Source: Oscillospiraceae bacterium
Lineage (GTDB): Bacteria > Bacillota > Clostridia > Oscillospirales > Oscillospiraceae
Assembly (NCBI GenBank): GCA_017415425.1
Contig: JAFQGT010000002.1
Span: 1-64,000 of the forward strand
Direction of reading: 5' to 3'
Length of the DNA stretch: 64,000 bases
In this document: in pieces, positions 2,231 through 33,366 of the stretch
Layout: each line of letters starts with the position of its first letter
How positions within the stretch are numbered: the stretch's first letter is position 1
Notes under the pieces: model-generated
Seen by the model: only the letters and a program-made list of their open reading frames with translations
Told to the model about the DNA's origin: nothing
The model's database searches: none
Translations under genes and position numbers: made by a program

Positions 2231-2674
2231 TTACGTTAGAGTCAAGAGATTTTTTAGATTGATCACAACTTTCTTTTGACGCCTGGCTTTTTCGGCGCAC
2301 CTGTATGCGCCGCCCCAGGTGTGGGTGATGTAGGTGACGACGTAGTCGGACTGCCGGAGCATCCAGTTGTTGCGCCAGGAGATGGCGTAGTGTGGGTGGA
2401 CAGACTCGATCCCCTCCGGGAGCATTGTGTCGGAGTAGTCGCCGTATTCCGTCTTCTTGCCGGGCATATAGGCCAGCACAACGGCGTAGTTGATCTGTGG
2501 ATATTCTTGCTTTAATCGCCTCAGTTCACCATGCACATAGGCGTCAAATTGTCCCTGATGGCCTACGTAGAACATATCCACCCCGTGGTTGGTTATCAGT
2601 TCTACAAGCACCTCGCTTAACTTCGGTTTTATCGTTCCCGGGCAATCCCGGTGACCAAAAAATGTGCAAATCAC
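2231..2674 (-). CDS. SLOG-fold (DUF1273/YpsA-like) protein
   Basis: 147-aa single-domain protein opening with CTFFGHRDCPGTIKP and containing GVDMFYVGHQGQFDAYVHGE, INYAVVLAYMPG and a late strand YVVTYITHTWGGAYRCAEKA. This is the Rossmann-like SLOG pattern of DUF1273/YpsA proteins, a fold that binds nucleotide-derived ligands or signals in several conflict systems. No catalytic residues can be assigned. It is transcribed divergently from the XRE-GHKL-receiver-protease-methylase operon, and its promoter carries two of the three ACCC-N6-GGGT operators. A second SLOG gene lies at 50499-51011, also beside a small XRE gene. Confidence 0.75.
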   Translation of the reverse strand: MICTFFGHRDCPGTIKPKLSEVLVELITNHGVDMFYVGHQGQFDAYVHGELRRLKQEYPQINYAVVLAYMPGKKTEYGDYSDTMLPEGIESVHPHYAISWRNNWMLRQSDYVVTYITHTWGGAYRCAEKARRQKKVVINLKNLLTLT

Positions 2675-2700
2675 AATATCTCTCCCAGCAAAACAAGTCT

Positions 2701-2714
2701 ACCCGTTTATGGGT
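2701..2714. promoter_or_regulatory. Operator-like site O1 (ACCC-N6-GGGT)
   Basis: 14-bp palindrome ACCCGTTTATGGGT, placed at the predicted transcription start of the leftward SLOG gene. It is one of three sites sharing identical ACCC/GGGT arms, the likely target of the adjacent XRE protein. Confidence 0.65.
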
Positions 2715-2720
2715 AGACTT

Positions 2721-2750
2721 ATTTTAATGTATTGTTTGTTGCGTTGTCAA
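2721..2750 (-). promoter_or_regulatory. Sigma-A promoter for the SLOG gene
   Basis: On the minus strand, a perfect TTGACA -35 (2745-2750), an 18-bp spacer and TAAAAT -10 (2721-2726). Operator O2 touches the -35 and O1 covers the expected start site, which is a repression geometry. Confidence 0.7.
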
Positions 2751-2763
2751 CCCGTATACGGGT
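2750..2763. promoter_or_regulatory. Operator-like site O2 (ACCC-N6-GGGT)
   Basis: 14-bp palindrome ACCCGTATACGGGT, the most symmetric of the three sites, abutting the -35 of the leftward promoter. Centre-to-centre distances are 49 bp to O1 and 47 bp to O3. Confidence 0.65.
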
Positions 2764-2796
2764 AAGGTTAGCTATTTTTGTTGATATGATAGTTTT

Positions 2797-2810
2797 ACCC
2801 AAGAATGGGT
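2797..2810. promoter_or_regulatory. Operator-like site O3 (ACCC-N6-GGGT)
   Basis: ACCCAAGAATGGGT, 28 bp before the XRE start codon and overlapping a TAAAAT-like -10 region (2810-2815) of the rightward operon. This suggests control of the operon by its own first gene product. Confidence 0.65.
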
Positions 2811-2837
2811 AAAATTATATAGTGTGGTGGATTTGCA

Positions 2838-3092
2838 ATGAACTATTCCGAAATTTATGTCAAAAGAATACGTAAATTATGCAAAGATCGCAATATAGCA
2901 ATCAACAAGTTGGCTACTATGAGCGATGTAAAGCAATCCACTTTGGATAATATAGTGCGAGGACTTACTAAAAACCCAACCGTTATCACACTGCACAAGA
3001 TTGCGCTCGCTTTTAATATGACTTTAGCTGAGTTTCTGGATTTCAAGGAACTCAATGATTATTCGTTTGACGACGATGATACCGAGGATTAA
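2838..3092 (+). CDS. Small XRE-family HTH regulator, first gene of the candidate defence operon
   Basis: 84-aa Cro/CI-type helix-turn-helix protein. Helices 2-3 are INKLATMSDVKQSTLDNIVRG, followed by TVITLHKIALAFNMTLAEFLDF and an acidic tail (DDDDTED). It has no ligand domain, so it most likely acts as a DNA-binding repressor of its own operon and of the divergent SLOG gene through the three ACCC-N6-GGGT palindromes upstream. The ATG follows GTGGTGG at about 8 nt. The next gene starts 35 bp downstream on the same strand behind a CGGAGG site, so cotranscription is likely. Confidence 0.85.
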   Translation: MNYSEIYVKRIRKLCKDRNIAINKLATMSDVKQSTLDNIVRGLTKNPTVITLHKIALAFNMTLAEFLDFKELNDYSFDDDDTED

Positions 3093-3127
3093 CCAAGAAA
3101 CTTGCTGATAACGGAGGTGCATCATAA

Positions 3128-5140
3128 ATGGCACAATCATTACATTTTAGCGCATCTACAAGTGTAAAGAATCTCTTTGGACGTGGCCTTGTTACAGATC
3201 AGGTCGCTGCAGTGTTTGAACTTGTCAAAAACTCTTATGATGCTGATGCACGAAAAGTTGAAATTGTTTTCTCTGACCTGAATACCGACAAAGCTACACT
3301 GACTATTCGCGATACTGGCACCGGTATGGACCTTGATGACATTGAGCAGCGTTGGATGGTCATTGGCACAGATAGCAAAAAGAACACACTGTATTCCCCC
3401 ATTTTTCATCGCCCGCTTAATGGTGACAAGGGCATTGGTCGTTTCTCCGTAGATAGATTGGGAGCTTTTCTGCATATGGAAGCTCAAAAAATGGGCTCTT
3501 CAGATCGTTACATAGCTGACTTCGATTGGTCTCTTTTTGATGGCGAATCAAAAAATATAAGCGACATAGCAATTCCATATGCACAAGTAAAAGCCGACAA
3601 AAAGGCACACGGTGTGTCTCTAACTATCAGCAAACTTAGAGATGTATGGGATGAGCAAAAACTTAGGGAGTTGTATAGGAACCTAAGACAGTTTAAAAGT
3701 CCTTTTGCACAAGATGATAATTTCAAAATTTTCATTACCGCCCCTGAATATGGATATAACAAGAGAGAAGTAGTTGTTGAAAAACTCGAAGGTGTCAGTT
3801 CACTTTGGATGATTGCAGAAATATCTGCAAACGATCCCGAAAAGATTCGCATCACTGTAAATAAAGACGGTCTTGAATACGAATCTATCCAAACCAATCC
3901 CTTTTCTTTTGGTAGTGTAAAAGCACAAGTCTTTATGTTTAACCAAGGCGACAAAGTCCGTTTTGCTAATCGGTATGGACTACGCGTTAGAGAATATGGT
4001 AATATTCGCCTTTATCGTGATAGTTTCCGAATTTACCCATACGGAGAAGCAAAAAACGACTGGCTAGATCTTGACAGACGTCAAACTCAAGGATTGATGC
4101 GCTTTTTAGGATCTCGAGATTTAATTGGATATGTCCAAATCGGTAAAGAATCGAATCCCAACCTGATCCCTTTGACAAACAGACAAGGTCTAGAAGAGAA
4201 CACAGCATTCGAAGAGTTAAGAAACTTCGTAATGCAGGTATGTATTAAGACTCTGGAATCCTACTATTTTACCAAAGTAAAAAAAGGCACCAATGAAACC
4301 ATACAAAAATCTAAAGTCCAAATAGGTGGTGCTGTTGCGGGATTGACGGAACTGGCAAAAGTCCTTAAAGATGCCAATCCGGATGCAGCCAAACAAATCA
4401 AAGACTACACTTCTGTAATTCAAAAAGAGCAAAAAAATCAACTACAATTTGTTCAGGATCAGCAAGAAATCGTCAAGGTATACTCCAGAATTGCTCAAAA
4501 AGAAACATTCCTGCACAAAATGATTCACCAATCGATGATTCATGTTAAGGATGCAGAGGTGGCGATGAACGCCTTTATAAGGAATGCAGAGGATATGGAA
4601 CCAGCCGAGGCGGCAAAATTGCGTGCCATCCACGGATATATTAAGGATGCGCTTTCACTATTGCGGACAGTTCGAGACGACGTTGTTAAGAAGAGAACAA
4701 AATCTCCACAAGATCTTGAACGTTTAACCCAGAGGTATTTGCAAGACAATAATGCATACTTTTCCGAAAATAGTGTAACAGTTTCTGCTGTTTGCGTTGG
4801 AAATATGCAATGCGTTGTAGACCCAGGTGACATTAAAGCAATCCTGAACAATTTGGCAACAAATGCTGTTAAGTCTTTAGTTAAAGTTAGTGATCGTCCT
4901 CGTGAATTAAGGTTTGAATTATACCGGACAGATCGCTTTGTAATTATTAAATGCATCGATAATGGTATAGGCATTCCAGAAGTGGATAGAGAACGCATTT
5001 TTGATCCATTCCAAAGTACCACTGATGGATTCGGCCTCGGCCTCACCATTATCGACGAAATCGCTAAGGAATATAACGGCGCATTGGAACTGATTGATAC
5101 TGCGGTAGGTGCCTGTTTCTCGGTGAAAATGAGGTGTTAA
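3128..5140 (+). CDS. Dual-GHKL ATPase / histidine-kinase-like protein
   Basis: 670-aa soluble protein with two complete GHKL folds. N-terminal (HATPase_c_3, MutL/MORC/Hsp90-like): N-box FELVKNSYDADA (30-41), G1 RDTGTGM (61-67), G2 GDKGIGRFS (99-107). A transducer-like middle follows with LYRDSFRIYPYGE (295-307) and DWLDLDRRQTQG. A long helical section (about 380-540) includes MIHQSMIHV (His467), a possible phosphoacceptor. The C-terminal histidine-kinase ATPase has NNLATNA (574-580), DNGIGIP (611-617), FDPF (625-628) and GFGLGL (634-639). No membrane segment is seen, so it should sense something cytosolic. The next gene, a receiver protein, starts one base after the stop, supporting a kinase/receiver pair. 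Whether His467 is phosphorylated is inference. Confidence 0.85.
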   Translation: MAQSLHFSASTSVKNLFGRGLVTDQVAAVFELVKNSYDADARKVEIVFSDLNTDKATLTIRDTGTGMDLDDIEQRWMVIGTDSKKNTLYSPIFHRPLNGDKGIGRFSVDRLGAFLHMEAQKMGSSDRYIADFDWSLFDGESKNISDIAIPYAQVKADKKAHGVSLTISKLRDVWDEQKLRELYRNLRQFKSPFAQDDNFKIFITAPEYGYNKREVVVEKLEGVSSLWMIAEISANDPEKIRITVNKDGLEYESIQTNPFSFGSVKAQVFMFNQGDKVRFANRYGLRVREYGNIRLYRDSFRIYPYGEAKNDWLDLDRRQTQGLMRFLGSRDLIGYVQIGKESNPNLIPLTNRQGLEENTAFEELRNFVMQVCIKTLESYYFTKVKKGTNETIQKSKVQIGGAVAGLTELAKVLKDANPDAAKQIKDYTSVIQKEQKNQLQFVQDQQEIVKVYSRIAQKETFLHKMIHQSMIHVKDAEVAMNAFIRNAEDMEPAEAAKLRAIHGYIKDALSLLRTVRDDVVKKRTKSPQDLERLTQRYLQDNNAYFSENSVTVSAVCVGNMQCVVDPGDIKAILNNLATNAVKSLVKVSDRPRELRFELYRTDRFVIIKCIDNGIGIPEVDRERIFDPFQSTTDGFGLGLTIIDEIAKEYNGALELIDTAVGACFSVKMRC

Positions 5141-5141
5141 T

Positions 5142-5783
5142 ATGCTTGAACGAAATATCGTGATTATTGATGACAATCCGCGCATTGAAGAACTCTACAT
5201 ACCAACATATTTGGAGAAAATCAACCAACTCAAAAACAGTAACCCCAAGTGGAATTCGTATGAATTTCATATTAAGCACTGTGCGGGTATGCGCCACGCC
5301 TTGGACTATCTGGACAATCCTAACAACATCATAGATGTATTGGTTGTGGACTATGATTTTAGTACAGAGAGTCATAAGCCTTTTTCAAACGGCACGGTAT
5401 TTGTCGATCATGTTAGAAAAAATATAAATCGGAATTGCGAAATCATTTTCTATACTATGCAGGCTCTGGGTGATATTCAGTTAGAAGATTGGGTTTCACT
5501 TGTTAATTCTGATGTCTTTCAATTTGTAGATAAGAGTGTCGATGATTCGGTTTTAGCAGACGCGATTTTTCATGCAGCGACAAGACGCAATCCCGTTGTT
5601 GAGTCCTTAGAACGCTTTATGATTAAATACGGTGCACTATTAGAAACCTATACATACACCTTTGGTGGGCACACAATTACATTTGAAGAAATAATTAATC
5701 ATATCCGCATGGATGACGAATTGGGCCGTATGTTTGTCGAAAAGTTACTTCAAAAGGCCATATTAATAAATACAGAAATCTGA
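5142..5783 (+). CDS. Stand-alone receiver-domain protein
   Basis: 213 aa. The first about 135 residues fit a response-regulator receiver: acidic pair Asp10-Asp11 (IVIIDDNP), phosphoacceptor Asp70 in VLVVDYDFS, Thr105 in IIFYTMQ and Lys131 in FVDKS. There is an insertion of about 15-20 residues after helix 1. The remaining about 75 residues are helical (LERFMIKYGALLE, ITFEEIINHIRMD) and contain no recognisable HTH or enzymatic domain, so the output is probably protein-protein contact. It starts 1 bp after the GHKL gene and ends 10 bp before the protease gene, so it is well placed to relay a signal between them. Confidence 0.8.
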   Translation: MLERNIVIIDDNPRIEELYIPTYLEKINQLKNSNPKWNSYEFHIKHCAGMRHALDYLDNPNNIIDVLVVDYDFSTESHKPFSNGTVFVDHVRKNINRNCEIIFYTMQALGDIQLEDWVSLVNSDVFQFVDKSVDDSVLADAIFHAATRRNPVVESLERFMIKYGALLETYTYTFGGHTITFEEIINHIRMDDELGRMFVEKLLQKAILINTEI

Positions 5784-5793
5784 GAAAATTACA

Positions 5794-6642
5794 ATGGATG
5801 CAATTTTACTTTGTATGAAGAAAAAGGGAATCCGGTTTTTTGGAAGTGTTCGTTTTCCAAATACCAATATTTCTCGTTTTTATGAAAAAACAGCTTTCTT
5901 AGCAAAGCTTCGTAGCCGGCGTTCAAATTATGACAATGTTCTTATTATGGCACATGGGTGGCACGATAGCATCCTAACTACTACGAGGAATCCAGATCAT
6001 CCATATAGAAAATACATTGACTGCAATGATGTTGGTGCTTTTGAAAACAACTTTATTTTTGCTGTTTCGTGCTTAACAGCTAACACCTTTGGCAGAAGGT
6101 GCATTGAACGAGGAAGTATTGCTTATTTAGGATATCAGGTGGAAATCGGTTATTTGTTTTCCGCCGATCCGAGCCCTGAAAGTTGTGTGCCTGGATCAGT
6201 AATTACCAGTATTAACACGTTGATCAAACACGTATTCGTCGAATCGTTATCTAAATCATACGAGGATTTTCTGCAAAACCCAGTAAGTGTAAAGCTACTT
6301 AGGATGCGCTTTGCTTTTGAAGTAGAAAAAAGGCTGTCCATGATTTTAGAGATGACGTCAAAGGAAATACACGAAAGATACAACATCAAGATTGCCGATC
6401 GGCATTATGCTGCGTATGTTACAAATCTGATTTTAAGGACAATCGAAAACCTTAACGAGATATTGCCCAGATTGATTTGTGTTGGAGACGAAAACTATAT
6501 TTCTTCCACATTCATTCGGTATAGGAAAGAGGCCGGATTGTCTAGCGAAGAGATTCTTCAAGAATTGGAGTGCAATCAATCGTTCAATAATTTGCAACAC
6601 GAAAAATACAAATCTTACCTAAGGGAATTAACTGTTAGTTAG
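5794..6642 (+). CDS. Caspase/CHAT-like putative cysteine protease
   Basis: 282 aa, not assignable to a named family by eye. Strand-His-Gly motif NVLIMAHGWHDS (His54) and, after about 35 residues, strand-Ser-Cys motif FIFAVSCLTANTFG (Cys93), then a Gly-rich strand GSIAYLGYQVEIGY. This order and spacing is that of clan CD peptidases (caspase, CHAT, separase-like), with a His/Cys dyad at the ends of adjacent strands. The C-terminal half is helical and may bind a partner. It lies between the receiver and the cytosine methylase in a tight operon, so an effector role controlled by the receiver is plausible. The start follows the receiver stop by 10 bp with a weak ribosome site. Confidence 0.6.
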   Translation: MDAILLCMKKKGIRFFGSVRFPNTNISRFYEKTAFLAKLRSRRSNYDNVLIMAHGWHDSILTTTRNPDHPYRKYIDCNDVGAFENNFIFAVSCLTANTFGRRCIERGSIAYLGYQVEIGYLFSADPSPESCVPGSVITSINTLIKHVFVESLSKSYEDFLQNPVSVKLLRMRFAFEVEKRLSMILEMTSKEIHERYNIKIADRHYAAYVTNLILRTIENLNEILPRLICVGDENYISSTFIRYRKEAGLSSEEILQELECNQSFNNLQHEKYKSYLRELTVS

Positions 6643-6660
6643 AGAGGAGGTTCGCCCAGA

Positions 6661-7893
6661 ATGAGCCAAGCAAAAAAGGGATATACATATATTGACCTAT
6701 TTTCCGGGTGTGGCGGACTTGCTCTCGGGATGCACAATGCTAATTGGAAGGCACACTTTGCAATCGAAAAAAACGAAGATGCGTTTAAAACATTGAAGTT
6801 CAATCTTATTGAAAAAGAAAACCATTTCCTTTGGCCGAACTGGCTCCCGCAAACTACGCACGACATAAATGAAGTACTGAGTGCACACGAAGAAAGGCTA
6901 AAGGCCTTGGCTGGCAGTGTAACGCTTGTGGCTGGAGGCCCTCCCTGTCAAGGATTCTCTATGGCAGGAAGGCGGCAAGAGGATGACACGCGAAATAGTT
7001 TAGTAGACTCTTATCTTCGATTTGTTGATTTAGTAGCACCCGATTCACTCCTCTTCGAAAATGTAAAAGGCTTTACTCAGCCCTTCAATAATTGTGCCAA
7101 AGATAGTCAAGGCAAGAACTACTCTGAGTATATCCTAAAAGAGTTACGTTCTAGAGGGTATTCTGTATCTTCTCAAATGCTTGATTTTTCGAAGTTTGGC
7201 GTTCCTCAGCGACGTGTGCGTTTCATCTTGTTTGCCAGTAAAACCATTGATCCTAAAGTGTTTTTTACTACTTTAGAAACAAATGTTAAATCCTTTGTCA
7301 AAGCACGCAATATCCCACGAAGAGTGAGTTTGAAATCGGCCATTTCTGACCTTGAAAAGATTAACGGTCAACAAGCTTGCCCTGATTCAAAAGGATTTAT
7401 GTCGGGCCAATACGGCAACGTTAAATCTAACTACCAAAGATATTGTAGAAAGGGTGCAAGAAAAGGAACCATTCCTAATAGCCATAGATTCGCAAAGCAC
7501 CGGGGCCCTACTATTAAGCGCTTTAATGAATTGCTTGTGCTAAATCTTCAAGACCGAAATATATCAAAGCTGTTAGGCGAAAAATATAGTATTAAGAAGA
7601 ATTGCTTTAGTGTTCTTTCTGCTAATACGCCGTCGCCCACATTAACATCCAACCCTGATGATCATATTCATTATTGTGAACCGCGGACTCTCACTGTACG
7701 TGAATACGCACGCATTCAGAGTTTCCCGGACTGGTTTGAATTTAAGGGGCCATATACAACGGGCGGAGAAAGACGCAAAATCGATGTCCCGAGATATACG
7801 CAAATTGCAAATGCAATTCCCCCGTTATTCGCCGAGCAAGTCGGCTTAACTCTCAATCAGCTGCTCGATGCACAGATGCCAGCTGCTGAATAA
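6661..7893 (+). CDS. DNA (cytosine-5) methyltransferase
   Basis: 410-aa C5 methylase with the canonical motifs: I DLFSGCGGLALG (12-23), IV GGPPCQGFS (92-100, catalytic Cys96), VI ENV (133-135), VIII QRRVRF, a target-recognition segment (about 230-330), IX RTLTVREYARIQSFPD and X IANAIPPLFAE. It transfers a methyl group from S-adenosylmethionine to cytosine C5 at an unknown target. A very strong AGAGAGGAGG site lies about 10 nt upstream. It is the last gene of the XRE-GHKL-receiver-protease operon. No restriction nuclease is recognisable in the window, so it may mark self DNA for this system or be an orphan. A terminator follows at 7902-7940. Confidence 0.95.
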   Translation: MSQAKKGYTYIDLFSGCGGLALGMHNANWKAHFAIEKNEDAFKTLKFNLIEKENHFLWPNWLPQTTHDINEVLSAHEERLKALAGSVTLVAGGPPCQGFSMAGRRQEDDTRNSLVDSYLRFVDLVAPDSLLFENVKGFTQPFNNCAKDSQGKNYSEYILKELRSRGYSVSSQMLDFSKFGVPQRRVRFILFASKTIDPKVFFTTLETNVKSFVKARNIPRRVSLKSAISDLEKINGQQACPDSKGFMSGQYGNVKSNYQRYCRKGARKGTIPNSHRFAKHRGPTIKRFNELLVLNLQDRNISKLLGEKYSIKKNCFSVLSANTPSPTLTSNPDDHIHYCEPRTLTVREYARIQSFPDWFEFKGPYTTGGERRKIDVPRYTQIANAIPPLFAEQVGLTLNQLLDAQMPAAE

Positions 7894-8461
7894 ACTCTTT
7901 TGGAGGCAAATCATATTCAGTATGATTGCCTCCTTTTTTTGTGTCTGATAAAAAATAGATCGGACAGTGCTGTGTGGTGTGCTCTAATAATAGTTGTCCT
8001 ATTTGTAAGGATAGAATGGTTTTATCTGCAACTATACAAGATGCATTCAGAAGTGCATCTGTTGCTCTAATGTATGTCTTGTAGTGAACATTTTCGCCCC
8101 ACAGCACCAAGTCAGGTGTCTCAGCTTTGCATAGATTCTTATCGTTTAAACACATACTATTAATCGTACCAAAAAGACGAATTACATCTGTTCGGCCATC
8201 AATTATTCTTTGATTTATTGCTTCACATGTGATAAGTGAGGAAATTACGCCCTGCTTTTGTAGCTGGATAATCCGCTCATAGTATAGTGTATCTTCACGA
8301 CCAGACTTTTCGATATCCTCAATTAGTGACCAAAACTTTTGCGGAGTTTTTTTCAATAAGCTCCGTGTCAACTTTTCGATATTCGCATTGCTTGTCCTAA
8401 ATGCATGTGAGCTATCCACAAAAACAAATGGGTATTGTAATTTTCCAAGGAGCTCGTCCAT
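7853..8461 (-). CDS. Degenerate sirtuin (SIR2)-like protein
   Basis: About 202 aa. The order of elements follows a compact sirtuin: N-terminal strand FVFVDSSHAF where GAGxS is expected, then LQKQGVISSLITCEAINQR where ITQNxDxLH is expected, then VIRLFGTINSMC where xELHGS is expected, then PDLVLWGENV (PxVVxFGE) and ASCIVADKTILSLQIGQLL (the GTSL region). The Gly-rich NAD loop, the Gln-Asn pair and the catalytic His (Phe here) are all replaced, so deacylase or NADase activity is doubtful. The ATG after AGAGGGG is preferred over one six codons upstream. Its 3' end overlaps the methylase by 41 bp and contains the methylase terminator. Family assignment is by pattern only. Confidence 0.5.
   Translation of the reverse strand: MDELLGKLQYPFVFVDSSHAFRTSNANIEKLTRSLLKKTPQKFWSLIEDIEKSGREDTLYYERIIQLQKQGVISSLITCEAINQRIIDGRTDVIRLFGTINSMCLNDKNLCKAETPDLVLWGENVHYKTYIRATDALLNASCIVADKTILSLQIGQLLLEHTTQHCPIYFLSDTKKGGNHTEYDLPPKEFIQQLASVHRAAD
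7902..7940 (+). terminator. Intrinsic terminator of the XRE-to-methylase operon
   Basis: Stem GGAGGCAA...TTGCCTCC extended by TCATA/TATGA, then seven T. It sits 9 bp after the methylase stop, inside the 3' coding part of the convergent sirtuin-like gene. Confidence 0.9.
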
Positions 8462-8554
8462 CCATTGTCCCCTCTTCATTAGGAAGTGTTTGTGTTGTTC
8501 TTAATATGCCTTTACTAGTATATGCGAGGATACTCTTACATATCACAAGCAATA

Positions 8555-8597: not shown

Positions 8598-8861
8598 TTA
8601 GGTATTTAGTTCTTGGGAGAGGCGGTAGGCAAGTTTGAGGGCAGCGATGAAGCCGGATTGTTGGTGCAGGCGGCAGAGGTTACAGCCAAGGTCGATGATG
8701 GCGTCCTTCTCCTTTAGGGTTTTATCGGACAGGGCGTTATAGAGGTCGTCGAAGGCCTGTTTGATCTTGTCCGTATCGTCGGTGCACACGTGCTCGTAAT
8801 AGGTGTTGTACAGGAGCTCCAGGACGGTGTCTGCATCGGGGCAGAGTTTCTTCATATCCAT
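8598..8861 (-). CDS. Small helical protein downstream of fic (DUF6809-like)
   Basis: 87-aa soluble, probably all-helical protein (TVLELLYNTYYEHV, DKIKQAFDDLYNALSDKTLKEKD, LCRLHQQSGFIAALKLAYRLSQEL). It resembles small uncharacterised proteins (DUF6809 type) common in gut clostridia; that label is from memory of the pattern and uncertain. Its ribosome site AAGGAGG lies within the last codons of the Fic gene and the start codon is 3 bp past the Fic stop, so translation is coupled. It may be a partner or inhibitor of the Fic protein, but nothing in the sequence proves this. Confidence 0.55.
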   Translation of the reverse strand: MDMKKLCPDADTVLELLYNTYYEHVCTDDTDKIKQAFDDLYNALSDKTLKEKDAIIDLGCNLCRLHQQSGFIAALKLAYRLSQELNT

Positions 8862-8864: not shown

Positions 8865-9800
8865 TCAGTCCTCCTTATAACCTGCAGGCAGGTAGAGACG
8901 GCTGTGGGCGTAGAGTTTTTGGAGTTCGATTTGGGCTTCGAAGCGGTCTTGAGCTTCCATGACTACGTCCACCAGTTCATAGTGGTCATCGTGCCATTCT
9001 TTGATGCCCCGGAGGTAACGGGATCGGCGCTTATCGTCGATGATGAATGGCATAATATCGTGGCGCAAACATTCCTTAAAGAGGATCAGTCTGCCCACCC
9101 GGCCATTGCCGTCCTCAAAGGGGAATATCTCCTCGAAACGAACATGGAAGTCCAGGATCTCATTCCGTTCAATCTCCGTCTGCTTTTCGTAGCCGGCGAT
9201 CAGCTCTGCCAGACTGGAATGGATTTTGTCAGGGTGCAGGAGCTGTCGATCCCGGGAACGGGATGTGATGGTCCGATACTCACCGGGGCGCACCTGCTCC
9301 CGATATTCGTCTACCGTACCGGTCATCAAGAGGTGATGGAGCTTGCGGATAAACTTTTGGGTCAGGGGCTCCATCACGTGGTCAAGGATATAATCCACGC
9401 AATGGATATGGTTCAGCACCTCGATCACATCGGACACTTTTAGGGGTTCAAAGGACTCCCGAATCTTGCCCTTTTTGAAGATGGTTTCCACCTGCTGACG
9501 GGTTAAACGGACGCTTGCCATCCGGGAAGAGGAGTAAGTCAGGTCAATTACGGTAAAATCGTACAAACCGTGAAAATTCCGCTTTTTCTTCTGATTTTGC
9601 AGCTTTTTGGCCAGTTCCGGCAACTCTTGTTCCGATGTATACTCCAAATCTGTCCGTGACACACGGATTGCGTCTTCCGGAATCCTCCAAACGCCGTCTT
9701 TCCACACTGCTCCGGGGATTCTGTCCTGTCTGCACAATCTTCTGACTAACATTGCAGAAACTCCCCATTTTTCGGCTATTTCTTTTACTGATACATACAT
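8865..9800 (-). CDS. Fic-domain protein with N-terminal HTH and altered catalytic motif
   Basis: About 311 aa. N-terminus YVSVKEIAEKWGVSAMLVRRL is a helix-turn-helix, giving way to a Fic fold with the motif FEEIFPFEDGNGRVGRL near the C-terminal third. Fic AMP-transferases use HxFx(D/E)GNGR; here the His position is Phe (TTC codon), while the anion-binding GNGR is intact. AMPylation is therefore unlikely in the usual way. The ATG with AAAGGACG 8-12 nt upstream is chosen; an open frame extends 35 codons further but runs through the promoter region. The protein may act as a DNA-binding scaffold or nucleotide-binding regulator (inference). Confidence 0.85.
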   Translation of the reverse strand: MYVSVKEIAEKWGVSAMLVRRLCRQDRIPGAVWKDGVWRIPEDAIRVSRTDLEYTSEQELPELAKKLQNQKKKRNFHGLYDFTVIDLTYSSSRMASVRLTRQQVETIFKKGKIRESFEPLKVSDVIEVLNHIHCVDYILDHVMEPLTQKFIRKLHHLLMTGTVDEYREQVRPGEYRTITSRSRDRQLLHPDKIHSSLAELIAGYEKQTEIERNEILDFHVRFEEIFPFEDGNGRVGRLILFKECLRHDIMPFIIDDKRRSRYLRGIKEWHDDHYELVDVVMEAQDRFEAQIELQKLYAHSRLYLPAGYKED

Positions 9801-10259
9801 AATTGTTTCGTCCTTTCTTTGTCGGTATCGGTACAAAAAGGGCGATACACCCCCGATACGCGATACACTTTCATCTTGAATAAATCTTGAATTACGACGA
9901 AACACTGTATACCAACTGTCACGTAATGTATTTTTATTCGTTATTTTGGTGCTATTTAGTCCACTTTATCCATATGTATTCATTCCGTCCACCTCCCGAG
10001 GCCATGGCATTCAAGAGGCCAGCGGTTTGGTTTTGCTTATTTTTAATCTCACATAAAATGGTCGGCTTTGGCTTTTTCCAAGCGTCTCTTGTTTTCAATA
10101 TCTCTTTTCAGTCCGGATTTTCCCCGCCTGAAAACACCGTCACCCGCAATGCCCAAATCACAGCAAAAATGGCACTGTATAGGAATCGCCATTGTGAATA
10201 TAGTCACGAAAAAGCACAGCTCCTATCCTGAAGCTGTGCTTTCATTATTTCGCTTAATC
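9801..10259. other. Non-coding gap upstream of fic
   Basis: About 460 bp without a credible gene. Near the fic start are three direct CGATAC copies (9843, 9854, 9861) and one inverted copy, GGTATCG (9824), a possible operator. The right end holds the terminator of the leftward DedA-like gene. Nothing else is recognisable. Confidence 0.5.
10211..10242 (-). terminator. Terminator of the TVP38/DedA-like gene
   Basis: 11-bp stem AAAGCACAGCT / AGCTGTGCTTT, 18 bp after the stop codon; the leftward transcript ends in TTTTT. Confidence 0.85.
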
Positions 10260-10940
10260 CTAATTTTTGTGTTTCATCCACAAGTTGTAACCCAACATAC
10301 CCAGGAGGCTAACGATGGCGGTTACAGCGTAGATAACTATGGCCACTCCATAATTCTTTTCACCCAAAAGGTGTCCGCTGAAGGTCGATGTGACCACAGA
10401 GGGGATTCTTGCAACCAGAGAGATGGCAAGAAATGTGCCAAATTTGATCTGGGTCAGACCCACAAAATAGGTCAGAATATCTTTGGGCGTCCCGGGAATA
10501 AAGAACACCAAGAATATCAGGAGATCCCTCTTTCTCTCCGTATTCAGGAAGCGCAGTTGATTGATTCTCTCTCTGCTGATGAACGCCTCCACCAGCTTTA
10601 CACCAAATTTTCGAGTCAGCGCAAACACCAGCGCAGATGCGATAGCGATACCGGCGTAACAAAGCAGCGTTCCCAACACAGGACCAAAAGCAAAGCCGGC
10701 CACACTTTCTAAAAGTTCACCGGGTATGAGCGCAACAAATACCTGCAAGATCTGCAGTCCCAGAAAGGCCAGCCAACCTACAACACCGAAAGAACGGATA
10801 TAATCCCGAAGTCCTTCCTGAGAAAAAGAGGCAAGCCAACGCCAGAAGAACCACGTAATCAGCAAAACCAGAACCGCCACAACAGCAGCAGATATACCGG
10901 ACAGTAGTTTTCTTTTTCGCTGGTAGTCCATATTTTTCAT
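10260..10940 (-). CDS. TVP38/TMEM64 (DedA superfamily) membrane protein
   Basis: About 226 aa integral membrane protein with five to six hydrophobic segments. The conserved core includes LIPGELLESVAGFAFGPVLG and the re-entrant FFIPGTPKDILTYFVGLT, which is characteristic of the VTT/SNARE-associated domain. Family members are proposed to act in membrane lipid transport or membrane homeostasis; the substrate here is unknown. The start is chosen at the ATG 8 nt after AAGGAG; the open frame continues 18 codons upstream without a ribosome site. It lies about 80 bp downstream of argF on the same strand and could receive read-through from the arginine operon. Confidence 0.85.
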   Translation of the reverse strand: MKNMDYQRKRKLLSGISAAVVAVLVLLITWFFWRWLASFSQEGLRDYIRSFGVVGWLAFLGLQILQVFVALIPGELLESVAGFAFGPVLGTLLCYAGIAIASALVFALTRKFGVKLVEAFISRERINQLRFLNTERKRDLLIFLVFFIPGTPKDILTYFVGLTQIKFGTFLAISLVARIPSVVTSTFSGHLLGEKNYGVAIVIYAVTAIVSLLGMLGYNLWMKHKN

Positions 10941-18422: not shown

Positions 18423-21400
18423 TTATTTTTTCTTATCCGGTGTCTGCGTGGCAAGTTTCTTCTTGTTGACAATCAGAAGCAGCATTGCGCATCCTGCAGC
18501 CAGCGCCAACACTGTGCAAAGCATCAGCGGGCTGTTATCACCGGTAGGCGGATTGCTGGGAATGAGAGGCTGTTCCACACTGACATCCTCATCCAGCCAG
18601 GTCATCGTATTCTCCAGATCCATGAGTACCATCACAATCCGCGCATCGGAGAGCTTGGTGGGATTAGAGTTCATCACCGAATTGGCTGCTGCCAGTGCGT
18701 CTTCCAATGCAGCATAATTCTCCTGGGTATAATTACCGGGATCAATGGCATTGGCTCTTGCAATCGCACTTTCCAGTGCTGCAGTGTCCCGAGACCGATA
18801 CAAGGTGAACCGATCGTTGTCAGCGCCTGCAAAGCCAAAGTAGCCGGCAGCGGTCAGCGCATTGGCGCCCTCAGCCAAGTGATTTAAAACCTCTGTTCCG
18901 TCAATGTACAAGACGATTCTAACGTTACCTTGTTCATTGAGAGCAGCCAGCTGAACTCTGTGGACCTGGCTGTCCAATACCACCGCGGATGTAGCAAGGC
19001 TTGTTTCTGTTGCGCCGCTGAGTTTTTTCAGTGCTGTGCCAGCGGCGGTAAACTCAATTGCGTATGCTCCGCTGCCGTCTTCCGTGGCTCTGAAGAGAAT
19101 CCGGGAGCCTGCACTATTGCGCTCCAGTTTCAGGTAGAACGTCATCATCTCATCGCCGTACTTGACGCCGGTATAGATTCCGGTGCCGTTGGGCTCAGCG
19201 GTGATGCTGACACCATCCTGAATGTTCCAGTTAGCGTTGCTGCCATTCCAATTGGTCTGGTTTTCTTCTTCAAAGATGGCATTCAGATAAGCTACGGAAA
19301 CCGGCTTCGCAACCACAGTATACTGTTTCGTTGCCGTGTTTCCGCCTGCGCTGGCGGTCACGGTCAGAGTTGTTTGACCGTTCTTATGGAAGCTTACCAA
19401 ACCGTTCTCATCTACAGTGGCAATGCTCTCATCCGCAATCTCGTAGGTAACCTGAGAAAGGGTGACCGAGTTGCCTTTCACAGTTGTGCCATAAGGTTTC
19501 AAGGCGGTCTTCACGCCGGGGAGCACATAACCCTCGATGCTATCAGTAATGCCCTCAAGACCTACCGCGCTAAAGACATCGGTGACGGTAACAGTAACTG
19601 TTTCAAGAGCAAACTCCATCTGGCTGGATACAACATACAGCTTCACTGTGGTGGTACCTGCCTTCAGACCGGTAATCAAACCGGTATCGGACACAGCCAC
19701 AACACTCTTGTCTCCGATAACGAAACGCATCGCGTTGCTCACATCCACCTCACGGCCTCTGCCGTCTGTACCGGTTACCTCCACCTGGAAGGATGTGGCG
19801 GCATCCAGAGTAATGGTTTGACCGTTTTGCAGATTGGAGGTCACGGACTTCGCCATACCCTGCTGCTGATCTTCATATGCCGCTTCCACACCGGCGTGAT
19901 TCATAATCTGCTGTGCGGCAGCAGGCCAGCTAGACCATATGTTTACTTTGGTGTTATTCTCTATGGTCAGGGAGAAGCCGTCAAGACCGTAGTAGTCGCT
20001 GGAATCAACGTCCTTGTAATAGTTATTGCTTAGGGTAATGTGGTTGGCAGTGTCTGCTATATACGCCCAGTCGATAGGTCGGCCGCAATTGGGACTTGTC
20101 CTGGTCCCGGTGACATCCACTACGTTGTTCTGTGCATTCCAGAAGCCGGAGCCGCTATCAAAGTAGATGGGCGCAACACAGTTGCCTTGATTCACAAAGT
20201 AGTTGCCGGTGATGCTGTTGTTACCGGCAGTAAGGCTGGTGCAGTAGATACCGCCGCCGTCACAAGTGCCCATATGCAGGCAATCGTGGACATAGTTATC
20301 CGAGAAATTCAGATTCTTCAGCATATTTTCGGTGGGGGAGTTCCAGCCTGCGCCGGTGTATACTCCGGAATACGCTGTGCTGTAGATCTCGTTATGGACA
20401 ATGTCGATATTGGGAATAAAGCCCACATAAATACCGCAGGCACTTTGGTACTCTACACCCACGTGGTGGATATAGTTGTTATAAACATCGATATTCTTGG
20501 TCAGATACTTTACTTCACTGGGATAGCGGTTGATGGTAGGCGATGCGCCACCATAAGTGTATTCGCCGATCACAATCGCGCCACCGGACAGGTCATAGAA
20601 TCGGTTACCCACCAGACGGCTGTTCTTTGCCGCGTAGTTGAACTTCAATGCGGTCGTACCCAATCTGGTGAAAGTACAATCCATAAAATGAATACCATTG
20701 GCCTTTTTCATTGCGATGACTGCATCTGCACTTTGATAACCGTCTTCCTCATTATCATCGAAGAGATGGTTGCCCTCGCTGGCCTTGTGACCAAGCTTGG
20801 AGCTGGGCCGCATATAGGTGGTATCCGCAAAGATGATACCCTGGAAGGTGATGTTCTGTACGGGATTGTCATAGTCTGTGCCCTGCACAGACACCAAGCC
20901 GTTATCGCCGTCACCAGCCTCATCCCAGGCATCCAACAGCGGCAGCGTGATGGTCACTTCCGACAGATCTTCATAGGCTCTGGGCATATAGTACAGCTTG
21001 TTGTTCACTTCGTCCAGATACCATTCACCGGACTGATTCAGCAGCACCAGAGAGTTTTCAATGTACTTGATCCTTTCGATGGTGCAGGTGGAGTACTCAT
21101 TGCCAGTAATGGCTTCCTGCCAGGCAGGCTGATCCATAATCAGATGCACTTTTCCGTTTCCGGCATCTCTGATCTCGCTTACGCCTACTCGCCGGTGACC
21201 CCAGTACTGGGCGTTGATGATTTCCATACCGTCAGGGTTGGTGCAATTCAGCAATTCTGTATTGGTACAGATGATGCCGATATTTTCACCGTTTTCAATG
21301 AGGTATGCGACATTTGACAAATTTCCGTCACTGACTGCGCGGGTTGCCCGCACACCATCCACATACATCTGTCTGGTGACGACGCCCTCGGGAATATCGG

Positions 21401-24400
21401 TCACATAGATGCCATTTTTCCACAGGGTGAATGCAGAACCGGAGATGTGCATACCGCCACCGATGGTGACCTCTGCATCTTCAGCAGCCTTAAAGACCAC
21501 AGAGTACAGATGATTACCGCCGTGGGTCTCATTCAACGCCAGCGTTTCGGTGCGGTAATAGTAGCCCTCTGCCAAAATGACTTCCACATTGCCGGACATC
21601 GTTGTCTTGTCGATGCCAGCCAAAATGGTCACTGCGCCATCCAGTGTCGTGGCATTGGACGGACTGCTGCCGTCACCGGTACCGTTGGTAGACACATAGA
21701 TTTTCCGCATCACAGACGGGTTGGTTACCGTAACCGGAATCTTCTGTTCCAGCCAGGGATAAACTTTGGAGCGCACGATCACATTGGTCTGACCTTCGCC
21801 AATCGCCAAAACCTCATTCCACTCATCCGTCGTTACGATATTGGGATTCTCCGAAATGAGCTCTAGGGAATTATCGCCCTCGTAGTCCAAGGTCAAGGCG
21901 GGTGCAAGAACCGTATGGCCGTGCACCGGCAGAGCCAGGTTGGCAGGCACATTTGCGAAGCTACCGGTCATCTTGTCCCCTACCGTGATGTTCAGAGTAA
22001 CCGGTGGAATAGCCGCCGTTTCCGCTGTTACTGTAATGGTGGTACTGCCCTTCTTCACACCGGTCACCACACCGTTTTCATCCACAGTTGCCACTGCAGA
22101 GTTTGCAGAAACATAACTCAGCGTGGCAGGCGCTGCACCCACAGGGCGGAACACCGGGGCTAATGTGAGGCTGCTGCCTTCGCGTACCATAAAGTCAGTT
22201 CCGCCAAAGGAAACCTCAGAGGCATTCAGATACGGCAGAATTTGCAGGTCATCAAAATAGATATTTCTGTTGCCCATACCGGAGTAGAAGCCCACAGATA
22301 CACGGTTAAGCCTCATTCCGGTCTTATCGGGATAAGGGTCAATGGACCACCCATCGCTCAAATCTATTTGGTTTCCGTCAACGAACAACAAACGAGTATC
22401 GTTGCGCAGATCCACCGTCATAACCACTTCGTGCCAGATGTCCCAAGCCAGATCCTCTACTGCTACAGACATTCTGCCGTCGGAAAATCCATATTCCAAA
22501 GTGTGGGGTCCAGACATAAACAGAAGCAGGGGTGAACCCTTAACTTCCTCGTTGTTATCAATTCCGGAATAAAGCAGAGAGGGCAGATATGTACCGTGCG
22601 ATCTGCTGTCGATCTTAAACCGATAACGCAATACCGCTTTCTCCGTCTCTGCAAAGGTATACCGCATAGAGTAAGAATGGGTCGCCTCCAATGCGGTTCC
22701 CTGATACATTCTTACGATCCGGTTGGATGCATCCAGTGCATCCTGCTCAACCTTCAGATAGTGTTCCTCCGGAGTTGTGCCGCTGGTATTGGGATTGACT
22801 GTCCAGCCGGAAGGCTCCTGTCCCACCGTCTCCTGATTGAAATCAAGCACCACCGGCAGGCCGGTAGACTTGGTGGATACCTCAATGTTGTCAAGATAGG
22901 TTCTGGTCTGCTGATTACCCGCAGCACCGGTAGATATCCTATCCAGCTTTTGGGAGGAGGAGATAGTGCTGCTGTCATAACCGGCTTCCAGATCATTTGT
23001 GGTCAAGGTCAACAAGGAGTCGTCCAGATACACCTTTACGGACTTGTTAGGAAGATCGTACTCCACACGCAGGGTATAGGACTTATCCCACGCCAGTGTG
23101 GCAATCTTCTCCTTGCCTCTTTCGATGCCCCGTCCATAGTTATAAAGCAGTATAGGTGTTCCTGCTTCGCACTGAACATACAGGCCGATGGGAGCATTGC
23201 CAAAGTCTGTGGCATTGTCTGTTGTGCCCTCATACAGCAGCACCGGCAGGATTGTTGCCTGATGACCGGCAGACACCGCTGTCAAATAAACGTCATATTC
23301 CAAAACCGCGTTGTCCACAGCTGTACCAAGCGCATACTGCTTCAGATAGTTAGCCGTGTTATCGAGATGGGCAACAAACAGCGCATTTGTTCCATTTTGG
23401 GGGTGTTGTGCAATCCTATGGAATGTTTTTTCATTCTGCACCGCGCTGTACGGGGTAGCAGGATTATCTACCCAGCCGGAAGGTGTATCACCAGCTTTTT
23501 CATTATCAAAGTTTAGCTTTACAATGGGTCCTCCGGAGACCACCACTGTCAGCCGAACAGGGGACATATTGTTGGCGCTGGGGGTTGCGGTAATCGTAGC
23601 AACACCTGCTCCCACCGCGGTAAGGACATTGCCCTCAGCACGGACAACATTGATATCGTTGGATTCGTAGGTGATCTCACACGCACCGCCGATGATGGTG
23701 GGGTTCAGCTCCAAAGTCTCGCCATAGTTGATCGTGTAGGTGGTCTTGTCAAAGCGGATTCCCGGATCGGGTACTTTTCCGGTTGCCTTGATGTTATCCA
23801 GATAAAGCATCGTATACTGGCCTTCATAGTAACCAGCTGTAAGGCGGTCCATAGTTGCACCCTGATTCCATATAGGAACATTGCCCTGGTTTTGCAGTGT
23901 GGGTAATTCAATTGCAGTCAGTTGACCGCCCTGGGTGCCGTAAGAAAGCGCAATGCCCTCATAAGCAGTAGCCTTCGTCAGATCCACTTCCACTTGAATG
24001 GTATACCATTTACCGAAATCGAGTGTCACTCCCAGACTCTCATAGTTGCCCTTACCCAGAGAGAAATGCAATGTGGTAGCACTGCCCTCCAAAAATGTTG
24101 CCAGCTGGATGGGCGCGGCATTTTGGTCATACCTGGCATCAGCAGCACCGGTGTACAGAGGAGTCGGCAGAATTGCGCCATAGCTTGTAGAACCCTTGGT
24201 CAGGAGCACATCGTAGGTCAAAACAATTTTTTCTGCTTCCTCAGACAGCTCTTTCTGGAAAAGGCCGTGCTGCTCAGCCCCACCGGTAGCATTATAGCGA
24301 ATATAGAAAGCTTTGGATGTCAGGGCGGGGGTGTACCCGGCTTCGATCGAGCTCACAACACTGCGCATATAACTAGGAGCAGCGATATTGGGCGCGGGCG

Positions 24401-24581
24401 TTGCGGTATTATCCGTCCAGCCAGCCTCAGAGCCAACACTCTCGTTGTCGAAGTTCTGATCTAACAGTACTTTATCTGTCAGCTCTGCACGCACACCAAA
24501 CGTGTTGCCGTTTGCAAACAGAAGGACAAACGTCATACAAACAATTAACAACGTGCACACCAATCTCTTTTCTTTTCTCAT
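18423..24581 (-). CDS. Giant cell-surface protein: LamG-like, Ig-like and beta-helix domains
   Basis: 2052 aa, secreted (signal peptide about 1-32). In order: three LamG-like beta-sandwich modules (about 35-270, 352-570, 578-790; each opens LxFDxExxG...GW), interleaved Big_2 Ig-like domains (VATVDENGVVTGVKKGSTTITV type), a right-handed beta-helix of about 500 residues starting IYVSTNGTGDGS (about 958) with RQMYVDGVRATRA, two more Big_2 domains, a further LamG-like module (about 1720-1880), a FIVAR-like helical repeat and a C-terminal NPPTG, membrane segment and KKK tail. The beta-helix resembles GH141-type carbohydrate-active folds, so glycan binding or cleavage is likely but unproven. Paralogous to 24875-28456 and 33410-36946. 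Confidence 0.85.
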   Translation of the reverse strand: MRKEKRLVCTLLIVCMTFVLLFANGNTFGVRAELTDKVLLDQNFDNESVGSEAGWTDNTATPAPNIAAPSYMRSVVSSIEAGYTPALTSKAFYIRYNATGGAEQHGLFQKELSEEAEKIVLTYDVLLTKGSTSYGAILPTPLYTGAADARYDQNAAPIQLATFLEGSATTLHFSLGKGNYESLGVTLDFGKWYTIQVEVDLTKATAYEGIALSYGTQGGQLTAIELPTLQNQGNVPIWNQGATMDRLTAGYYEGQYTMLYLDNIKATGKVPDPGIRFDKTTYTINYGETLELNPTIIGGACEITYESNDINVVRAEGNVLTAVGAGVATITATPSANNMSPVRLTVVVSGGPIVKLNFDNEKAGDTPSGWVDNPATPYSAVQNEKTFHRIAQHPQNGTNALFVAHLDNTANYLKQYALGTAVDNAVLEYDVYLTAVSAGHQATILPVLLYEGTTDNATDFGNAPIGLYVQCEAGTPILLYNYGRGIERGKEKIATLAWDKSYTLRVEYDLPNKSVKVYLDDSLLTLTTNDLEAGYDSSTISSSQKLDRISTGAAGNQQTRTYLDNIEVSTKSTGLPVVLDFNQETVGQEPSGWTVNPNTSGTTPEEHYLKVEQDALDASNRIVRMYQGTALEATHSYSMRYTFAETEKAVLRYRFKIDSRSHGTYLPSLLYSGIDNNEEVKGSPLLLFMSGPHTLEYGFSDGRMSVAVEDLAWDIWHEVVMTVDLRNDTRLLFVDGNQIDLSDGWSIDPYPDKTGMRLNRVSVGFYSGMGNRNIYFDDLQILPYLNASEVSFGGTDFMVREGSSLTLAPVFRPVGAAPATLSYVSANSAVATVDENGVVTGVKKGSTTITVTAETAAIPPVTLNITVGDKMTGSFANVPANLALPVHGHTVLAPALTLDYEGDNSLELISENPNIVTTDEWNEVLAIGEGQTNVIVRSKVYPWLEQKIPVTVTNPSVMRKIYVSTNGTGDGSSPSNATTLDGAVTILAGIDKTTMSGNVEVILAEGYYYRTETLALNETHGGNHLYSVVFKAAEDAEVTIGGGMHISGSAFTLWKNGIYVTDIPEGVVTRQMYVDGVRATRAVSDGNLSNVAYLIENGENIGIICTNTELLNCTNPDGMEIINAQYWGHRRVGVSEIRDAGNGKVHLIMDQPAWQEAITGNEYSTCTIERIKYIENSLVLLNQSGEWYLDEVNNKLYYMPRAYEDLSEVTITLPLLDAWDEAGDGDNGLVSVQGTDYDNPVQNITFQGIIFADTTYMRPSSKLGHKASEGNHLFDDNEEDGYQSADAVIAMKKANGIHFMDCTFTRLGTTALKFNYAAKNSRLVGNRFYDLSGGAIVIGEYTYGGASPTINRYPSEVKYLTKNIDVYNNYIHHVGVEYQSACGIYVGFIPNIDIVHNEIYSTAYSGVYTGAGWNSPTENMLKNLNFSDNYVHDCLHMGTCDGGGIYCTSLTAGNNSITGNYFVNQGNCVAPIYFDSGSGFWNAQNNVVDVTGTRTSPNCGRPIDWAYIADTANHITLSNNYYKDVDSSDYYGLDGFSLTIENNTKVNIWSSWPAAAQQIMNHAGVEAAYEDQQQGMAKSVTSNLQNGQTITLDAATSFQVEVTGTDGRGREVDVSNAMRFVIGDKSVVAVSDTGLITGLKAGTTTVKLYVVSSQMEFALETVTVTVTDVFSAVGLEGITDSIEGYVLPGVKTALKPYGTTVKGNSVTLSQVTYEIADESIATVDENGLVSFHKNGQTTLTVTASAGGNTATKQYTVVAKPVSVAYLNAIFEEENQTNWNGSNANWNIQDGVSITAEPNGTGIYTGVKYGDEMMTFYLKLERNSAGSRILFRATEDGSGAYAIEFTAAGTALKKLSGATETSLATSAVVLDSQVHRVQLAALNEQGNVRIVLYIDGTEVLNHLAEGANALTAAGYFGFAGADNDRFTLYRSRDTAALESAIARANAIDPGNYTQENYAALEDALAAANSVMNSNPTKLSDARIVMVLMDLENTMTWLDEDVSVEQPLIPSNPPTGDNSPLMLCTVLALAAGCAMLLLIVNKKKLATQTPDKKK

Positions 24582-24821
24582 AGTATCATCCCTTCTCCTT
24601 TATGCTTCAAACACCGCCAAGGCGCTGCAACGATTTTATCCATATAATTACCAAGGTACAGCATCGGCAATTATGCTTTTTACATTATAACAAAAAGATT
24701 TGGATTTGCAATACATTGGGCTGTTTTCTTTCTCCATAGAAAGACTTTTTGTAAGTATCGCCAAAAAGCTCCTGGTAATTTTGTGCAGTTTTTTGTTTCC
24801 GTGGAGGGCAATACCGCAAAG

Positions 24822-24849
24822 GAAGGGAGGCTCCTAAGAGCCTCCCTTC
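24822..24849 (-). terminator. Terminator of the 1193-aa beta-helix protein gene
   Basis: 12-bp stem GAAGGGAGGCTC / GAGCCTCCCTTC with a 4-nt loop, 25 bp after the stop codon. It shares the GAGGCTC core with the terminators at 28662 and 33367. Confidence 0.8.
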
Positions 24850-24874
24850 TTGTTTGGATTATTTGCTTATTCGT

Positions 24875-28456: not shown

Positions 28457-28661
28457 ATTCGTATTCTTTCCTTTCTTAAAAACTGATAGGCTGGATATTC
28501 CCAAAAAACACCCATCTTATCTGGCGCAACCATTTTAACAAACCCTGATATTTTTTTCAATACTTTCGGACAAAATCGCATCCACCCACTTCTCATTTTG
28601 TATATATAACCAAAAATAGCATTTATTTTTTGGATAACTTGCCCGTCCGTTTTGTTATAAA

Positions 28662-28687: not shown

Positions 28688-28709
28688 AAATATACGTTAT
28701 GGAAATGAA

Positions 28710-33313: not shown

Positions 33314-33316
33314 TCA

Positions 33317-33348: not shown

Positions 33349-33366
33349 TTTGTAACAAAAGCAAAT

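Follow-up and report, generated by a model that had tools for sequence, protein, structure and literature searches.

The question raised by the locus described here is what a cytosine methylase, a histidine kinase with its receiver and a protease-like protein may do together when their genes stand in one tight row behind a repressor gene. The row lies in an Oscillospiraceae bacterium (GenBank assembly GCA_017415425.1, contig JAFQGT010000002.1, positions 1 to 64,000; this whole stretch of 64,000 nucleotides is called the window below), and a sequence-only reading of it had proposed a new defence system in which a dedicated kinase-receiver-effector operon is coupled to a methylase. Our analysis confirmed what that reading had observed and supports part of its interpretation. 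The best explanation of the locus is, in our view, an abortive defence that is guarded by methylation, set off by a phosphorelay and carried out by a protease, which we hold tentatively and with a probability a little short of even. The genes concerned are the following:

2838 to 3092, forward strand: repressor of the XRE/Cro type that probably regulates its own operon (Pfam HTH_26, 2.5e-10)
3128 to 5140, forward strand: dual-GHKL histidine kinase, 670 amino acids (Pfam HATPase_c_3, 1.4e-16, and HATPase_c, 1.6e-23)
5142 to 5783, forward strand: receiver protein, 213 amino acids (Pfam Response_reg, 17.4 bits, below the cut-off of 30.2)
5794 to 6642, forward strand: putative clan-CD (caspase/CHAT-like) cysteine protease and predicted effector, 282 amino acids, with His54-Gly55 and Cys93
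6661 to 7893, forward strand: C5-cytosine DNA methyltransferase, 410 amino acids (Pfam DNA_methylase, 1.4e-50; PADLOC MTase_II, 2.6e-82)
7853 to 8479 (the start may be 8461), reverse strand: convergent SIR2-like protein, sirtuin-like by profile and probably without catalysis

The five rightward genes are as tightly spaced as had been claimed, the list of open reading frames (ORFs) giving gaps of 35, 1, 10 and 18 bp from XRE through kinase, receiver and effector to methyltransferase. Relatives of the operon were collected through the effector, which yielded four loci: the window itself, L005 (same order, different family; L052 stands for this contig too and was counted once), L053 (from the caecum of a roe deer, titled Oscillospiraceae) and L054 (titled Lachnospiraceae). 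Kinase, receiver, effector and methyltransferase follow one another in this order in all four, with the SIR2-like gene convergent at the methyltransferase end. The expectation that these genes would stay together was borne out, and the idea of a dedicated operon with a methylase is supported; since the loci were selected by the effector, the count says nothing about kinases elsewhere. XRE was seen in three of the four, and none was found in L054, whose contig starts 603 bp upstream of the kinase gene. Amino acid identity to the window in L005, L053 and L054 was, respectively, 79, 77 and 52% for the kinase, 66, 64 and 40% for the receiver, 58, 57 and 37% for the effector, 77, 96 and 56% for the methyltransferase and 44, 82 and 23% for the SIR2-like protein, while XRE was 100% identical in L053 and 86% in L005. 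Because the gene set recurs while effector identity to the window is only 34-58%, a five-gene operon with this recurring content is beyond chance.

Besides its own genome, the effector had one real relative among 295 genomes drawn from the order. None was found among 391 genomes drawn from the class or among 280 genomes of another family of the class (one false match was dropped in each case), and 10 genomes of the known relative's family returned only that relative. In the GTDB collection, scanned with two short N-terminal effector peptides, 344 pattern matches contained three loci, one of them the L005 contig; relatives lacking these peptides would be missed. Searches with the receiver gave no relative among a further 397 genomes sampled from the phylum, nor in plasmids and IMG/VR. 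Among the effector candidates that were dropped, L006 showed a weak match (E 7.2e-4; 6e-5) and was by eye a hydrolase of the haloacid dehalogenase (HAD) type, and L093/L094 were by eye a membrane transporter component.

The residues that a phosphorelay needs are in place. The kinase consists of an N-terminal HATPase_c_3 domain (MutL/MORC-like), a linker carrying His467 and a C-terminal HATPase_c domain, and in all four loci E31/N35/D62/G64/G66/G102/G104 of the first GHKL domain and N575/N579/D611/G613/G615/G634/G636/G638 of the second are invariant. Residues 12-240 match the BbrUII/HgiDII family of restriction enzymes in NCBIfam (E 2.2e-20, 72.8 bits, against a cut-off of 550), and two PADLOC REase_II matches are confined to residues 7-128, within the GHKL part. 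His467 is the likely phospho-acceptor, as it is kept in 17 of 17 aligned kinases of the wider family and the nearby His463 in only four of the 17. It is followed by Gln468 in the four loci, and by glutamate (HE) in L041, L043, L044, L045, L050, L074 and L081. The receiver keeps D10/D11/D70/T105/K131 in 4/4 loci. Its C-terminal part of about 70 residues has no known domain, no DNA-binding domain was found in the protein with Pfam, and comparison of its profile with PDB gave chance-level rows only. In the effector, H54, G55 and C93 are invariant in the four loci, H54 and C93 down to 34-37% identity. The His54/Cys93 pair and the receiver Asp70 singled out beforehand are where they had been placed and are conserved. 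A hydrophobic stretch of membrane type is missing from all five core proteins (top 19-residue hydropathy mean 1.27; kinase maximum 1.00).

The methyltransferase carries the PPC, ENV and QxRxR motifs, with P94/P95/C96/E133/N134 invariant in all four loci, and no nuclease domain that could represent a cognate endonuclease was found in the operon with Pfam and NCBIfam. The SIR2-like gene, treated as a neighbour by the sequence-only reading, is a constant member of the set, being present in 4/4 loci. Compared by hhalign with five ordinary sirtuins its profile scored 91.9% (E 7e-7), and three other alignments reached at most 0.3%; the NCBIfam CobB match (17.6 bits, E 0.0017) is far below the cut-off, Pfam gave no SIR2 match, and the PDB sequence search gave only a poor sirtuin row (E 0.61). 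The GAGxS motif that binds nicotinamide adenine dinucleotide (NAD) and the catalytic histidine are hallmarks of sirtuins, and both are visible in the five compared. In all four loci [VL]DSS replaces GAGxS and LFG replaces LHG/IHG, and a conserved zinc-cysteine set was not found in them. With these replacements the protein is probably sirtuin-like with its chemistry lost, and it may bind NAD or ADP-ribose.

A broader view of the kinase was obtained with its N-terminal 518 residues, which matched in 48 of 391 class genomes (own included) at E≤0.001, 34 of these matches being weaker than 1e-10, and with a profile search of IMG/VR, which returned 23 contigs. Gene layout was compared in 41 loci, of which 37 had a kinase ORF of at least 560 amino acids (L049, L051, L082 and L083 fell out); L075, L076 and L084 are near-copies among these rows. 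In the maximum-likelihood kinase tree, which is midpoint-rooted and whose deepest forks are open, the four operons group as a single clade (100/100), placed beside L069, L090, L042, L038, L039 and L040 in a ten-row set with 98/100 support. An ORF stands directly behind the kinase in 30 of the 33 loci outside the four, that of L046 being the rest of a broken kinase, and a C5-methyltransferase gene adjoins kinase or receiver in the same tight, same-strand chain in 14 of the 33 kinase rows that fall outside the clade of the window. What follows the receiver varies. In L041, L050, L074 and L081 a short receiver is followed immediately by an HNH-type gene (Pfam HNH, 1.2e-6 for L050 and no match for L041), and Vsr-like genes accompany other kinase loci. 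The receivers of the neighbouring tree group are longer than that of the window, with the exception of L090, whose receiver is short, and RNxxxH was found near the receiver C-terminus in six of seven examined (L038, L039, L040, L042, L069 and L082, not L090); L082 was included in this count but is absent from the tree. HEPN ribonucleases have RNxxxH as well, and a ribonuclease effector fused to the receiver is possible in these proteins. L090, an IMG/VR contig, has a methyltransferase-kinase-receiver row followed by a 222-amino acid protein with IGHG...LLCC (10238-10906, forward strand), possibly a second caspase-like effector in the same slot; no relative of it was found in phages or plasmids, and IMG/VR gave only itself. 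We read these layouts as a single module in which the effector that comes after the receiver can be exchanged; this effector may be an HNH gene, a HEPN-like end or an HG...C protein. Two further observations were made in the same family. A protein of 215-220 amino acids stands right after receivers of about 400 amino acids in L085 (7963-8625), L086 (13361-14023) and L089 (8388-9035), the L085 copy having no Pfam match, and in L082 (9992-13975) the kinase gene is split in two, with a 494-amino acid opposite-strand ORF, transposase-like by eye, between the halves.

Exchange may also have taken place within the operon itself. The L053 operon occupies the same chromosomal site as that of the window, with MerR and SLOG upstream and Fic-side sequence downstream, and carries a 1.4-kb insertion near 1300. 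Compared per 200 bp, the two sequences are 84-96% identical over most of the flanks, XRE and the methyltransferase gene, 55-81% from 3201 to 6600 and 78-84% in the SIR2-like gene, and identity falls again beyond 9600. At fourfold-degenerate sites (14-88 per bin) identity was 70-83% in MerR, SLOG, XRE and the methyltransferase gene and 55-62% in the SIR2-like gene, against 20-57% in the kinase, 26-36% in the receiver and 39-44% in the effector. As silent sites should not differ in this way under protein selection alone, recombination most likely replaced kinase, receiver and effector as a block, with XRE and the methyltransferase gene kept. This agrees with the kinase tree, where the kinase from the window clusters with that of L005 (99/87) rather than with that of same-site L053; the exchange is deduced from one pair of genomes.

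The phosphorelay residues of the operon are complete, no DNA-binding output could be found, and both a methylase and a conserved HG...C protein are encoded. The best order for their action would be that the kinase senses, the receiver relays and the protease acts. The methyltransferase would methylate self DNA, and the N-terminal GHKL ATPase domain of the kinase, which is MutL/MORC-like, would clamp or inspect DNA, the trigger being unmodified or invading DNA or a product of infection. The C-terminal GHKL domain would then phosphorylate His467 and the phosphate would pass to Asp70 of the receiver, two residues that are present, after which the receiver could free the HG...C protein through direct contact. 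Once free, this protein would cut one or more host proteins, leading to cell arrest or death, i.e. abortive infection. XRE would repress the operon via three operators, and the SIR2-like protein might be an accessory sensor or brake that binds NAD or ADP-ribose. The module would accordingly be made of a sensor kinase, a receiver, an exchangeable toxic effector and a self-marking methylase. Such an abortive defence is favoured by the gene order kept in 4/4 loci with its invariant relay, effector and methyltransferase residues, by the match of the N-terminal GHKL domain to BbrUII/HgiDII restriction enzymes, sub-cut-off as it is, by the HNH genes, RNxxxH ends and L090 HG...C gene in the effector slot of relatives, and by the methyltransferase genes adjoining kinase or receiver, the clade formed by the four operons and the exchange of the block. 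It also fits the published case of VcSduA, which belongs to a kind of GHKL-nuclease protein annotated as paraMORC3, protects from phage and loses this capacity when an ATPase residue is changed (PMC12137116). A more specific version, in which the restriction arm is a phospho-activated caspase-like protease, with a MutL/MORC-type clamp that reads DNA methylation, a phosphorelay and protease-driven death, a sirtuin-like pseudo-enzyme as fifth element and the cassette swapped under a fixed repressor and methylase, we consider unlikely.

For the effector we narrowly favour a caspase/CHAT-like cysteine protease. The caspase-like label of the sequence-only reading rests on the conserved HG...C signature, and profile comparison gave no support for a protease fold. 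A strict strand-HG...strand-[SDTN]C pattern was present in 5/5 effector ORFs (the four loci and a cut copy), in 6/13 C14/CHAT loci and in 0/493 background ORFs, with 0.1-0.6% of shuffled effectors matching and L090 missed. A looser one took in the effectors, L090 and 12/13 known C14/CHAT loci together with 20/493 background ORFs, and matched 1-6% of shuffles. The two patterns were formulated with the sequences already in view, and the earliest pattern had matched 12/387 ORFs, namely the five effector ORFs, L090, one C14 locus and five unrelated ones. The competing possibility, that the 282-amino acid protein is another enzyme or a scaffold and the HG...C pattern incidental, is a considerable one, if somewhat less than even: the protein gave no match in Pfam, NCBIfam, PHROG or PDB and only a weak PADLOC REase_III match (E 0.0075), though the positive control in hhalign, CHAT against C14, scored 82% (E 1.1e-5) and worked with a single CHAT sequence. 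Such an incidental pattern fits poorly with its absence from the background and with H54 and C93 remaining invariant in such divergent copies. Several results do weigh against a protease-based abortive defence. With hhalign the effector reached 0.2% against 11 C14 proteins, 0.3% against one CHAT protein and 0.1% against both (L095 was left out of this set, as no HG ORF was picked), no better than the 0.1-1.4% obtained with the unrelated alignments A4-A7; this firmer negative, with a working control, lowered our confidence, with the limit that only four effector sequences entered and a very distant clan member could escape. The L090 protein fails the stricter motif, its homology to the window effector is undetectable, and hhalign gave no support for pairing the two. 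The HEPN reading of the relatives' receivers rests on the motif, with Pfam support only in L069, where DUF4145, HepT-like, scored a sub-cut-off 21 bits (23.1 required). Furthermore, sensing of unmethylated DNA would be borrowed from the family by analogy, only four loci with the set were found, three of them titled metagenome-assembled genome, and searches with the effector in plasmids, phages and IMG/VR gave no relative.

Two other explanations would do without a dedicated defence. The operon could be a two-component circuit regulating a solitary methylase, an epigenetic switch in which relay and fourth protein tune methyltransferase or XRE levels and no killing takes place. An XRE with operators suggests autoregulation, the methyltransferase gene is the last of the operon, and the authors of PMC8011034, in the part of that article taken into account here, speculate that such relays control restriction-modification systems. 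The receiver, however, has no detected DNA-binding domain, the same slot is filled in relatives by nuclease or HEPN-like parts, and the kinase-receiver-effector block has been exchanged, as expected of a conflict module, which leaves this circuit improbable. To a similar degree we doubt that the operon is a selfish restriction-modification module akin to toxin-antitoxin pairs, where loss of the methyltransferase would trigger the kinase and the effector would kill cells that had lost the operon, phage defence being a by-product. Methylase and sensor sharing one transcription unit, the tight linkage and the rare, patchy distribution are what such a module would show, while the chromosomal site shared by two genomes and the lack of any copy in the plasmids searched are not.

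The signals and the neighbour that complete the locus are the following:

2700 to 2715, 2749 to 2764 and 2796 to 2811, between the SLOG and XRE genes: operators, three ACCC-N6-GGGT palindromes, probable XRE sites
about 7902 to 7940, forward strand: operon terminator, located within the 3' end of the SIR2-like gene
2231 to 2674, reverse strand: SLOG-like neighbour, divergent from XRE and outside the core set (Pfam YpsA, 24 bits, below the cut-off of 27.7)

A single operator array and a single strong terminator had been described, and both were found. ACCC-N6-GGGT motifs also precede XRE in L053 (three) and L005 (two), and the only two perfect TACCC-N6-GGGTA matches in the whole window are in the operator region; with up to two mismatches there are 22, which is chance level (shuffle mean 19.1; 27/100 shuffles reach 22). 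XRE probably represses its own operon via these operators. The terminator stem-loop has -18.4 kcal/mol (z -5.95) and was equalled by 0/200 shuffles; a simple terminator scan did not list it, and promoter matches were at chance level. The 3' ends of the SIR2-like and methyltransferase genes overlap by 41 bp. The AT-rich character assigned to the region holds for the operon relative to its immediate flanks, with 36.6-43.8% GC in the 500-bp bins across 3001-8000 against 51.8-55.0% in the pair preceding 2501 and 51.8-52.8% in the pair that follows 8500, and is not confined to it, as bins 1-500 (35.4%) and 9501-10000 (43.2%) are also AT-rich. SLOG and SIR2-like genes are both present as had been indicated; the former is linked to XRE and not to the core. 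Its membership in the set was ruled out by L113 (3326-8386), where SLOG, three ACCC-N6-GGGT operators and a close XRE (E 9e-48) occur without kinase, receiver, effector or methyltransferase genes, adjoining TnsB/TnsC/TniQ-like, transposition-type genes (named by eye), and by L005, where no SLOG match was found although the contig extends 538 bp past XRE. L114 has SLOG beside a more distant XRE, and divergent SLOG-XRE pairs recur in the genus. Next to the operon there is a second candidate defence gene, encoding a Fic/DOC protein with a helix-turn-helix domain (8865-9905, reverse strand; PADLOC PDC-S04, 8.4e-75), with an 87-amino acid protein just downstream of it (8598-8861, reverse strand) that has weak DUF6809 and weak Csx1 matches. 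Further along the window, 18423-36946 encodes three giant proteins of 1178-2052 amino acids with Big_2 and GH141-insertion domains.

The association of kinase, receiver and C5-methylase is already known as a prediction and is not categorically new. HEF_HK/Response_reg_2 two-component-like elements beside C5-methylases were predicted by Bellieny-Rabelo et al. (2021; PMC8011034), and the part of their article used here describes such kinase-receiver pairs adjoining C5-methylases, some with HNH or Vsr genes near. These elements share with the window a HATPase_c_3 plus HATPase_c kinase, an adjacent receiver, a C5-methylase and the restriction-modification setting; as described there, they differ in having Glu/Asp after the core histidine, where the window has Gln, and the methylase upstream, where the window has it last, and the HG...C effector and the SIR2-like gene belong to the window and not to them. 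The words caspase, protease, peptidase and sirtuin are absent from the text of PMC8011034. In profile scans run without a positive control, PF19191/PF19192 gave no match for the window kinase or receiver (E≤1) or for the related ones scanned (E≤0.1, 1, 0.01), which would place them outside formal HEF_HK/Response_reg_2 membership. The sequence-only reading knew no described system with this exact gene set. The set as a whole was not encountered in the open-access literature (most subscription papers lie outside that scope); its kinase/receiver/C5-methylase part is not new as an association, going by PMC8011034 and PMC2292703. Within the open-access texts, to the extent covered, neither the HG...C effector nor the constant sirtuin-like protein, the HEPN-like receiver ends or the cassette exchange was encountered. 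If the proposed defence is correct, it links self-marking DNA methylation, phosphorelay signalling and caspase-like executioners, so far seen apart, in an unusual restriction-like defence against viruses in which damage is done by a protease rather than by a DNA-cutting enzyme. The variable slot behind the receiver suggests a general rule for the widespread, so far only predicted, methylase-linked two-component systems, and turns the prediction into one that can be tested as abortive defence.

Set beside type II restriction-modification, the operon has the cytosine methyltransferase, and a cognate endonuclease domain was not found in it with Pfam and NCBIfam. Detocs is likewise a defence operon that joins a histidine kinase and a receiver to an effector; its sensor differs, its effector cleaves nucleotides, and it is not known to include a methylase. 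The paraMORC/MORC GHKL ATPases that adjoin methylases in restriction-modification operons (PMC2292703, 2008, as far as considered), and the BbrUII/HgiDII enzymes, share with the window an N-terminal MutL/MORC-like GHKL domain and a cytosine methylase in the operon, whereas the window operon has no detected endonuclease domain and its signal would run through a phosphorelay. Caspase-like peptidases are described as interchangeable effectors in conflict systems dependent on nucleoside triphosphates (PMC7159879, 2020, in part), the systems described being vWA-MoxR and other NTPase ones, while that of the window would sit behind a kinase relay with a methylase. Finally, the paraMORC-HEPN (Ymh) fusions of restriction-modification neighbourhoods (PMC3710099, 2013, from the sections considered) also couple a GHKL ATPase to a toxic effector in that setting; in them the effector is fused to the ATPase, and in the window the predicted effector stands behind the receiver.

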